A stretch of DNA of 64,000 bases from Pseudidiomarina gelatinasegens (GTDB taxonomy: Bacteria; Pseudomonadota; Gammaproteobacteria; Enterobacterales; Alteromonadaceae). Shown here piece by piece: positions 1,137 to 4,393 of the stretch; the first letter of the stretch is position 1; every line of letters starts with the position of its first letter. The position numbers were made by a program, and so were the translations under genes. Under the pieces are notes generated by a model. The model was not told where the DNA came from, did no database searches, and saw nothing but the letters and a program-made list of their open reading frames with translations. The DNA lies in NCBI RefSeq assembly GCF_004025325.1, contig NZ_RSFE01000005.1, forward strand, positions 62,001 to 126,000, read 5' to 3'.

Positions 1137-1664
1137 CTAATTCTTGATTGGGGAATATTTACTCAATTTGCGTTGAAGAGTGCGACGGTGCATTCCCAAA
1201 GCTCGTGCTGTCGCGGATATATTGCCTTGATGTTCGTGCATCACGCGTTGGATGTGCTCCCATTCCAACTGAGCGGGTGTCATTGGCTGCGCACTGGGTA
1301 GTGGCATCAATTCTGATTCGGGTGTTAAACAATTCAGCAACACGGCAGTTTGTATTGGTTTTGCCAGATAATCCGTGGCACCCGCTTTGATAGCGGCTAC
1401 CGACGTTGCGATGCTGGCGTAACCCGTCAGGACAACAAGGTTTTCTGGCTTGAACCGGCGCTGCAAGGGCTCGATGAGTTCTAATCCATTGGTTTCACCA
1501 AATTTTAAGTCGAGCAGTATATGCTCCACATTGGGGAGATTAACCTGGTCAAGTTCAGTTTTCGTTGCTGCCGTGCGGACTTTATAGCCAGCCCGCTCAA
1601 GACGGCTTGTAAGTGCCTGCAATAAATTAATGTCATCGTCAATGATCAGAACCGTTTCAACCAT
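1137..1664 (-). CDS. regA: RegA/PrrA/ActR-family response regulator
   Basis: A 175-residue two-domain regulator. Residues 1-120 form a receiver domain: acidic pocket DDD at 9-11, phospho-acceptor D52 in HILLDLKF, conserved T in LTGYAS and K in YLAKP. The C-terminus is a Fis-type helix-turn-helix, GNISATARALGMHRRTLQRK, nearly the RegA/PrrA/ActR signature. RegA-type proteins control redox-responsive genes when phosphorylated by RegB. The start overlaps the stop of the kinase gene by 8 bases, showing translational coupling, and the persulfide-dioxygenase-like gene follows 5 bases after its stop. Length and domain order match the family; the target genes here are unknown. Confidence 0.88.
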   Translation of the reverse strand: MVETVLIIDDDINLLQALTSRLERAGYKVRTAATKTELDQVNLPNVEHILLDLKFGETNGLELIEPLQRRFKPENLVVLTGYASIATSVAAIKAGATDYLAKPIQTAVLLNCLTPESELMPLPSAQPMTPAQLEWEHIQRVMHEHQGNISATARALGMHRRTLQRKLSKYSPIKN

Positions 1665-2676
1665 GAATCACCTCAATTGGCATGCGTATTTCGGTGACCG
1701 TATAACCTTGCTCAGCACGCCAAGTCACAATGCCACCAAAACGCTCAAACGTTGCATAACTCAACAAAGCACCTGCACCCACACCGCGGCTGCTCGGCAG
1801 CAATTCACGGCCTAATCCTTGCTTACGAAAAGCATCAAGCGGCTCACCCTGATTGCGAATCGTCATGCGCCAGCTCTGTTCAGAAACTTCAGTTCGCACT
1901 TCGATTTTCGAATCTACCGGTGCAGCATCGGCAGCATTATGAAGTAAACTCAAAATAGCCGGAATTAGTGTTCGGTCAGCTCGAACAACGCAACCCGGTT
2001 GTTCATCATCGCGCCACATAACCCGAATATCTGGGCGCACTATTAAGAGCGCGTCTTTGACCTGTTGCACCAATTCATTTACTTGAAGCTCCAGTATCCG
2101 ATTGGTTCTGACATCTTCCGCAACTTGCCGCCAGTCTAGCAAGAGATTGTGAATACGCCGTATCTGCTGCTCAGCACGTTGTAAATCTTCGTCATTCGGA
2201 TAGCGTTGGCGCACGTCTTCGAGCATAAATTGAATGGTCTGAATCGGCGTAGCAACTTCGTGACTGAACTGTGCCGCTGCGGTGCCGATAGTTACGAGCT
2301 GTTCATCTCGATGCTGACGCTGGTGCAGCGCGCGAATCGCTTGCTGCTGGCGAACTATACGAATTCGCAACAGATGTAACGTAATTCCTAGCAACAGCGC
2401 GGCGAATACTTGCCCATATACCATCGCCCTATAGTGGGTATCCATTTGATGATGAGTAGGTAGTGGTGCTTGCAACTGCAGCAACTGCCCCAGCACCCCT
2501 ACCACAATGACCAACCATGCCAATCGAAATGGTAGCAGGAGCATAGCAGCTGCCATAGGTACCAGTATCAGCACGGCATAGGGGTTCGTTGCTGCACCGT
2601 TTAGCCAGATAAAACTATTGGCAATAACGGTAATCAGCAATAGCACCAGTGCTGTCAAAATATCCCGTATGGTCAC
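1657..2676 (-). CDS. regB: RegB/PrrB-like redox sensor histidine kinase
   Basis: A 339-residue membrane kinase. The first ~110 residues hold four or more hydrophobic segments. NGAATNPYAVLILVP (residues 26-40) resembles the GGxxNPF quinone-sensing motif of RegB. The H-box is FSHEVATPIQTIQ with phospho-acceptor H139, matching the RegB 'HELGTPLATI' arrangement; the N-box is LHNAADAAP near 245-253. The C-terminal ATP-binding region is divergent: G1 reads RNQGEP rather than DxGxG and G2 reads GVGAG. The only cysteine is C229, so the redox-active cysteine of RegB is not clearly conserved. It is first in its operon and divergent from the OprC-like receptor. Confidence 0.82.
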   Translation of the reverse strand: MTIRDILTALVLLLITVIANSFIWLNGAATNPYAVLILVPMAAAMLLLPFRLAWLVIVVGVLGQLLQLQAPLPTHHQMDTHYRAMVYGQVFAALLLGITLHLLRIRIVRQQQAIRALHQRQHRDEQLVTIGTAAAQFSHEVATPIQTIQFMLEDVRQRYPNDEDLQRAEQQIRRIHNLLLDWRQVAEDVRTNRILELQVNELVQQVKDALLIVRPDIRVMWRDDEQPGCVVRADRTLIPAILSLLHNAADAAPVDSKIEVRTEVSEQSWRMTIRNQGEPLDAFRKQGLGRELLPSSRGVGAGALLSYATFERFGGIVTWRAEQGYTVTEIRMPIEVIHG

Positions 2677-2779
2677 GTGTTTTAGCTCCTTTCGAAGTAC
2701 CTCTTAAGTATGCATGAGTTTGACCAGAATTCCAGCTGCGACACTTTGCCACATCCCTTTTGAAATCAAGCCGTTGATA

Positions 2780-4393
2780 ATGCGCTCATCTGCTTACTAC
2801 TGGAGTAAAATCATGCTGGCAATGTATTCAATGGCGCTATTAATAAGTCAATCTCAACCCCCTCAATTGGAATTGGAACGTATCGTCGTTACCGGCGCAC
2901 GTCCTTTAAGCACTATAGAGGTGGTGAAAGATCCCAAAGCGCCGCAGCAACCTTTACCCGCTCACGACGGGGCTGATGAAGCTATTAATAGTGCCTACCA
3001 GCGCTGGGGCATTGACACGCAAATGGGTTGGACACCCGATGATGATACCGTGGTATTGCTAACCGTCGGGCAAAGCGGTGCAGAAGCTGCTTATGCCGAT
3101 CGGATGATGGATGGCGCGTTGTTTGACCGCACCAGCGCAAGCCTGCGTTGGCGGGAAAGCTATCTGACTGATTGGTTGGCCGAATTAGACACGCAAGTCT
3201 ATTTTGGTTACGTCGACCATGTCATGGACAATTACAGTCTGCGCGAATTTACCCCATCGATGCAGATGCCAAACCCTGCGGTAAAAAATCCTGACCGCTA
3301 TAGCCGCGGTGGTCGCATCGTTGCAACACTCGACACAAAGCTTTGGTCGAAATTTCAACTTGGCTTAGACCACCAATACCACAGTCACCGCGAACGGGTC
3401 AGCATGAATCAGTTCGTGATGCCTTACCAAGCGAAAGCACGCATTGCTGATGCTACCATTGAACAAACGGGTGTATTTGTTGAAACCAACTTTGCGCTTA
3501 CGAATAACAGTGCGTTACTAAGTGGCATGCGTGTTGATTTTTGGCAGGCGCTTGATCAACGGCAGCAGCTTGGCAGTATGGCAATGTCCCAACCAAATCC
3601 AACAGCAGATGAATCCCGTAGCGATGAATTGACCAGCGGCTTCTTGCGTTTTGAACGCACTGAAGGCGCACATCAGTTTTACGTTGGTTTGGGTCGCGGC
3701 GAACGTTTCCCAGATTTTTGGGAACTCATCGGCAATCAAAACCAAAGTGAAACGACCATTAGTGCGTTTAATATAGCTCCGGAGCTTACCCACCAATTGG
3801 ATATAGGACACCACGTGCGTAGCAATAACCTCGAGGTATTGATAAACGCTTTTTACAATCGTGTGGATAATTTTATTCTGATTGAAAGTGGCCAGATGAT
3901 GAATCCAAATACCGTGCGTTCTATTAAAGCCGAGAGTTGGGGCGGCGAAGCAGCCATTAGCTATAGACCAAGCCCAAACTGGTTGGTTGATGCCAGTGTG
4001 GCCTATACCCACGGTAGCAACTTAACCGATCGACGCGCTCTGGCGCAGCAGCCTCCGCTTGAACTAAAGCTGGGCGCAGAATATAAAATTCACGATTGGA
4101 CCCTTGCCGGGCTTTGGCGCGTTGTTGATAACCAGCACCGAGTGGCTATTGGGCAAGGCAACATTGCTGGGAGTGACTTCAAAGAAACCAGTGGATTTAG
4201 CACACTGGCAGTGAATGGTCATCGGCGCATTGACCGTAATTGGCGCCTAAGCATTGGCGTGGATAACTTAATGGACAAGCGCTACGCAGAGCATTTAAGT
4301 ACAGCTGGTGCTGCGGTTTCTGGGTTTGAACAAACCACACAGGTCAACGAACCTGGCCGTACTTTCTGGTTTAAGCTGGATTATCACCTGTAA
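2780..4393 (+). CDS. OprC-type TonB-dependent copper receptor lacking the plug domain (in-frame internal deletion)
   Basis: The sequence matches TonB-dependent copper receptors of the OprC family through its whole barrel: GWTPDDDTVVLLTVGQSG, EAAYADRMMDGALFDR, YVDHVMDNYSLREF, VSMNQFVMPY and a C-terminal RTFWFKLDYHL. The N-terminus keeps ERIVVTGA (TonB-box-like) and KAPQQPLPAHDGAD, which in full-length relatives leads into the plug. Here DGAD (codons 2966-2977) is followed at once by EAINSAYQRWGIDTQMGWTP, which in relatives lies after the plug, so roughly 160 residues are missing without a frame break. The HxM motif (HVM) remains but the plug CxxxM copper ligands are gone. The start is uncertain: GTG/ATG choices at 2714, 2780 and 2813 exist; 2780 gives a charged signal-peptide start, 2813 has the best ribosome site (GGAG). 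Confidence 0.8.
   Translation: MRSSAYYWSKIMLAMYSMALLISQSQPPQLELERIVVTGARPLSTIEVVKDPKAPQQPLPAHDGADEAINSAYQRWGIDTQMGWTPDDDTVVLLTVGQSGAEAAYADRMMDGALFDRTSASLRWRESYLTDWLAELDTQVYFGYVDHVMDNYSLREFTPSMQMPNPAVKNPDRYSRGGRIVATLDTKLWSKFQLGLDHQYHSHRERVSMNQFVMPYQAKARIADATIEQTGVFVETNFALTNNSALLSGMRVDFWQALDQRQQLGSMAMSQPNPTADESRSDELTSGFLRFERTEGAHQFYVGLGRGERFPDFWELIGNQNQSETTISAFNIAPELTHQLDIGHHVRSNNLEVLINAFYNRVDNFILIESGQMMNPNTVRSIKAESWGGEAAISYRPSPNWLVDASVAYTHGSNLTDRRALAQQPPLELKLGAEYKIHDWTLAGLWRVVDNQHRVAIGQGNIAGSDFKETSGFSTLAVNGHRRIDRNWRLSIGVDNLMDKRYAEHLSTAGAAVSGFEQTTQVNEPGRTFWFKLDYHL

Follow-up and report, generated by a model that had tools for sequence, protein, structure and literature searches.

An OprC-type TonB-dependent copper receptor gene that is probably a very young pseudogene, formed by an in-frame deletion, in Pseudidiomarina gelatinasegens

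The window, a stretch of 64,000 nucleotides from the genome of Pseudidiomarina gelatinasegens (2.47 Mb, 99.98% complete, Pseudidiomarina/Idiomarina group), carries an oprC-type gene with an open reading frame and no plug domain. Does such a gene encode a plug-less pore, or is it the remnant of a receptor? The original prediction named both options, a decaying pseudogene with an in-frame deletion and a plug-less pore with a new role. The data described here favor the former with good confidence: the gene is best explained as an OprC-type TonB-dependent copper receptor turned pseudogene very recently by short-repeat deletion. The pore is weakened by the predicted loss of barrel strands 1-3, and the word "decaying" is premature because the rest of the gene gives no sign of decay yet, as judged from dN/dS, invariant positions, and the neutral tail of its branch.

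The assignment to the OprC-type receptors, proposed from the sequence, is borne out by two matches. The window protein aligns with positions 157-636 of the NCBIfam profile TIGR01778 (TonB-copper) at 453.9 bits, which falls just short of the curated cut-off of 472.45 bits, and it also matches OprC of the PDB. Pfam detects the barrel and no Plug domain (PF07715) in the window protein and both domains in the intact orthologue at locus L031. Its identity to the intact OprC orthologues at loci L031-L036 (63-73%) and its neighbors show that the receptor shares descent and synteny with them. In all nine named loci, three of which hold broken copies, the five flanking genes are arranged and oriented alike about the receptor gene or what is left of it. 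One flank encodes an MBL-fold hydrolase together with a RegA/PrrA-like regulator and a RegB/PrrB-like kinase; the other encodes a YebC-family protein and, beyond it, what we take to be an S9 peptidase. In six named genomes, the close relatives carry a full plug at this same place, which speaks for a pseudogene in the window.

The frame is intact, as originally described, with no stop before the one that ends at position 4393. Its best start gives 526 amino acids plus the stop, and starting from the earlier ATG at 2780, as first proposed, gives 537. That start is possible, but the ATG at 2813 is likelier, judging from the sequence, than the in-frame ATGs at 2780 and 2714, since a GGAG precedes it, as one does the corresponding ATG in three of four relatives (L032, L033, and L038; not L031). 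The features of the locus are collected in Table 1.

Table 1. Features of the receptor gene, in positions of the window.
Feature	Position	Strand	Basis
Internally deleted oprC-type copper receptor gene	2813..4393	+	Frame; NCBIfam TIGR01778 profile; PDB OprC match; GGAG at 2802-2805
Ton-box-like segment ERIVVTG, kept	2876..2896	+	Alignment to relatives; OprC Ton box as given in excerpts of PMC8610252
Deletion junction GAC GGG GCT GAT (DGAD), apparently two in-frame DG words fused, 420 bp apart in relatives	2966..2977	+	Alignment; DNA match offsets
Remaining barrel, 471 codons, predicted strands 4-22 of the intact orthologue	2978..4390	+	Models and strand bookkeeping
HVM, barrel half of the CxxxM-HxM copper site, plug partners absent	3218..3226	+	Alignment; site as given in excerpts of PMC8610252

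Two side observations concern possible regulation. The regulator and kinase genes (window 1140-2676, minus strand) score 151.8 of 250 and 85.2 of 350 bits against the NCBIfam cut-offs and, being well under these, may constitute a divergent redox two-component pair. The element GCGACACTTTGCCAC, located 5′ of the receptor gene at window 2738-2752, occurs unaltered in L031 and with a single change in L032, L033, and L038. We take it to resemble RegA/RegR-type operators; with this likeness and the divergent RegB/RegA-like neighbors, the receptor may be redox-regulated.

An alignment to ten full-length relatives shows the window protein to be short of 140 consecutive residues, or 420 bp by DNA match offsets, fewer than the roughly 160 residues first estimated. 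The join of DGAD to post-plug sequence is as had been described: EAINSAYQRWGID comes immediately after KAPQQPLPAHDGAD. Of the two DG words in the relatives, one opens the plug and the other lies just after strand 3. Their spacing is 420 bp, in frame, in all six intact orthologues (measured in L034-L036, taken from match offsets in L031 and L032, and given by 140 gap-free columns in L033). Because the words sit 420 bp apart in relatives, the idea of a deletion between short repeats, put forward in the original prediction, stands as the probable mechanism.

Of the 94 columns found invariant across 29 other family members, 31 fall among the deleted residues, and on this count parts essential to OprC family function appear to have been lost. 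These 29 sequences (alignment A1, to which A2 adds the window) are drawn from 36 loci, leaving out L038, L046, L050, L051, L052, L065, and L066, which are broken, over-extended, partial, mis-framed, or remnants. Among the losses is half of the copper site. The available text of PMC8610252 places this site at plug residues Cys143 and Met147 and barrel residues His323 and Met325, and the same excerpts report that the C143A mutant binds no Cu(II). Both the Cys and the Met of the CxxxM word are invariant in 29/29 sequences of A1; a regular-expression search caught the word in 24/34 loci. The window protein has lost CxxxM and kept HVM, in agreement with the original prediction.

Structural models indicate that the deletion reaches further than the plug. 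The AlphaFold2 model of the intact protein at L031 (P. tainanensis, 666 aa) has a pLDDT of 81.9 and a pTM of 0.84 and superposes on the OprC crystal chains with TM scores of 0.89-0.93. It contains 22 barrel strands, three of which (151-158, 162-173, and 176-187) fall within the deleted stretch, while strand 4 begins at 202. In the same numbering, the missing residues are 52-191 or 56-195, depending on where the cut is placed inside the DG word. The model of the window protein (pLDDT 77.8, pTM 0.76) shows 19 long strands, and its residues 18-69 fall under pLDDT 50; both strand counts were made by eye from DSSP lines. The models thus have the deletion taking the plug plus barrel strands 1-3 of 22. 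The in-frame loss of the plug stands as first described, and its confinement to the plug does not. Domain searches hide the loss of strands, and the barrel appears complete, because the Pfam match to PF00593 begins at residue 188 of the intact L031 protein, past strand 3. Removal of strands 1-3 would also place strand 4 parallel to strand 22.

Evolution of the retained barrel is evidence on the other side. The barrel is 73-74% identical to L031-L033, about as near to them as they are to one another (70% between L031 and L032). In the barrel tree, the branch lengths are 0.178 for the window and 0.131 for L031; in the neighbor-gene tree they are 0.093 and 0.076, giving barrel-to-neighbor ratios of 1.9 and 1.7. 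A codon model assigns the window branch a dN/dS of 0.070 versus 0.083 elsewhere (2dlnL 0.35) and rejects a value of 1 (2dlnL 42.7). On the same branch, four of the five neighbor genes (regA left out) show dN/dS values of 0.021-0.045. These codon models use a single topology, that of the concatenated neighbor genes, with rates uniform among sites and synonymous distances near saturation; the barrel's own protein tree groups L031 with L035/L036, unlike that topology. A neutral tail of 0.02 synonymous substitutions per codon costs a 2dlnL of 2.9 and one of 0.03 costs 5.4, with a branch total of about 0.9, so the neutral fraction of the window branch would be at most about 3%. The window keeps 63/63 of the retained family-invariant positions; when rows are left out one at a time, 24/30 keep all invariant columns and 6 depart.

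Relaxed or accelerated barrel evolution was therefore not seen in the protein tree, the codon models, or the neutral tail. Accelerated evolution as proof of decay was rejected, and the lack of a rise counts against the pseudogene reading. The absence of relaxation in the retained barrel means that the gene, if dead, must have died very recently; given the conserved barrel and the low dN/dS, selection still acts on the barrel unless the deletion is very young. The frameshifted L038 was considered as a yardstick for young pseudogenes and set aside. Its branch dN/dS is 0.295, 0.091, and 0.090 under three topologies (2dlnL 4.2, 2.7, and 2.5), a rise so weak that it calibrates little.

The history of the locus in the genus bears on the same question. 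Among 26 genus genomes, that of the window included, oprC beside yebC is intact in 9, broken in 4, and absent in 13, one of which (G005) carries, on a different contig, a full-length relative with 48% identity. Besides the window, the broken copies belong to MAG P03SST1bin.20, P. marina, and MAG 34-48-12 (G018, G023, and G040). The first lacks 355 bp of the barrel, which shifts the frame, and keeps its plug intact (L038, 5058-6724). P. marina and MAG 34-48-12 have a common scar, with about 2,000 bp deleted and the last 26-31 codons left before yebC. This shared scar lies at about 4985-5075 of L066 and about 5005-5096 of L065 (MAG 34-48-12), within which L101 also lies. If the scar is a single event, the sequences would record three deletion events at one locus, including that of the window.

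In wider samples, an OprC-like barrel is found at E <= 1e-40 in 24/369 class genomes and 40/394 order genomes, the window's own genome being counted in both. No other barrel without a plug-length frame or plug DNA was found in the class and order samples, aside from one contig-edge piece (the second match in G517, a 259 aa frame starting from base 9 of its contig). The shortest other frames (393 aa in G423 and 612 aa in G539) have plug DNA present, with a frameshift or stop; the remaining matches were taken to have a plug on the basis of frame length alone (at least 657 aa). G423 and G539 belong to one family, have about 2 Mb each, and hold broken oprC relatives with a frame change (L135, 484-2342) and an early in-frame stop (L136, 273-2132), respectively. 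Within these limits, the plug-less form was found in no other sampled genome, a statement that concerns these genomes and not what the literature holds on natural plug-less receptors.

The pseudogene would have arisen in one step. Slippage or recombination between similar short words (DGAD and DGx[D/G]) probably removed 420 bp, and the product stayed in frame because both words lie in one frame, 140 codons apart. The protein would thereby lose the plug, the Cys/Met copper ligands, and barrel strands 1-3, and its remaining 19 strands would be unable to close with an antiparallel pair. Assembly failure and degradation, or at best a copper-inactive product, are therefore expected, with failure to assemble as the likeliest outcome on the models. 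Lack of function and the youth of the lesion are both what we infer from these data. Most likely, the loss has been caught early, and relatives have lost the gene too. The points against a pseudogene are the low dN/dS, the 63 kept invariant positions, the open 526-codon frame, and the five flanking genes in order.

The same low dN/dS and kept positions, together with the retained Ton-box region and barrel HVM, would suit a selected plug-less outer-membrane pore, that is, a 19-strand or re-registered barrel serving as an unregulated diffusion channel or binding protein. This reading is nonetheless very unlikely. The engineered FhuA(delta 5-160) is recoverable from the outer membrane, although much less stable in detergent, but it retains its 22-strand barrel according to the excerpts of PMC9581862, whereas the window protein is predicted to be without strands 1-3. 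The portion of PMC7586230 drawn on here describes bacterial outer-membrane barrels as all even-stranded and reports odd-stranded ones, closed by a parallel pair, from mitochondria only. In the text available from PMC10994204, the FpvAI barrel on its own shows defects in both ligand binding and uptake. Furthermore, no second genome with the plug-less form was found in the genus, class, or order samples, and the clade has lost the gene repeatedly; it is this recurrent loss, with the loss of strands 1-3, that makes a plug-less pore less likely. The narrower claim that the truncated protein is made, assembled, and selected as a natural plug-less 19-strand barrel, one step from a 22-strand TonB-dependent receptor, is highly improbable.

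A plug supplied in trans by another gene has an engineered precedent, as a soluble plug partly restores the plug-less FpvAI barrel (excerpts of PMC10994204). A separately encoded plug had also been named in the original prediction. When the window's own genome was searched with the intact orthologue, no lone plug was found at E <= 0.001, and a plug encoded elsewhere in that genome was rejected. The search returned four matches, two being parts of the receptor gene and two remote (30% and 21% identity, in frames of 752 and 753 aa). Barrel strands 1-3 would, on the models, still be missing, and this explanation has a vanishingly small chance of being right. It is also hardly probable that the gene is intact and that the assembler dropped 420 bp. 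The sequence does come from a single assembly, but imperfect words of 12 bp are presumably far too short to collapse it, the junction falls within a contig of 243,739 bp in a nearly complete genome, and no orphan plug sequence was found elsewhere in the assembly. The preferred explanation remains the very young pseudogene.

As a dead gene, the locus is ordinary, and its value is that of a worked example. A Pfam match from beyond strand 3 shows a seemingly complete barrel even though the fold would have lost three wall strands, and DG words that bracket the plug in frame at a fixed spacing let a deletion look like a designed variant. Should the protein fold, it would be a natural test of the bacterial assembly machinery closing an odd-stranded barrel.

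Compared with OprC of Pseudomonas aeruginosa, the window protein has the same barrel strands 4-22 (as modeled), HxM barrel ligands, Ton-box-like N-terminus, and DGAD word that opens the plug; it differs in having no plug, no CxxxM, apparently no barrel strands 1-3, and a TIGR01778 score below the cut-off. The broken oprC copies of P. marina, MAG 34-48-12, and MAG P03SST1bin.20 belong to the same family and syntenic locus, and those of G423 and G539 to the same gene family; these were broken by near-total deletion, frameshift, or stop, whereas the window has an in-frame plug deletion. Engineered FhuA(delta 5-160) and the FpvAI barrel domain resemble the window protein in lacking the plug and keeping barrel sequence. 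However, the FhuA deletion ends at the plug (excerpts of PMC9581862) and that of the window extends beyond strand 3, while the FpvAI construct is described as the barrel domain alone (excerpts of PMC10994204). The 19-strand mitochondrial barrels VDAC and Tom40 share strand number alone with the window protein, no homology being claimed, and differ in their parallel-pair closure and mitochondrial location, as described in the available part of PMC7586230.
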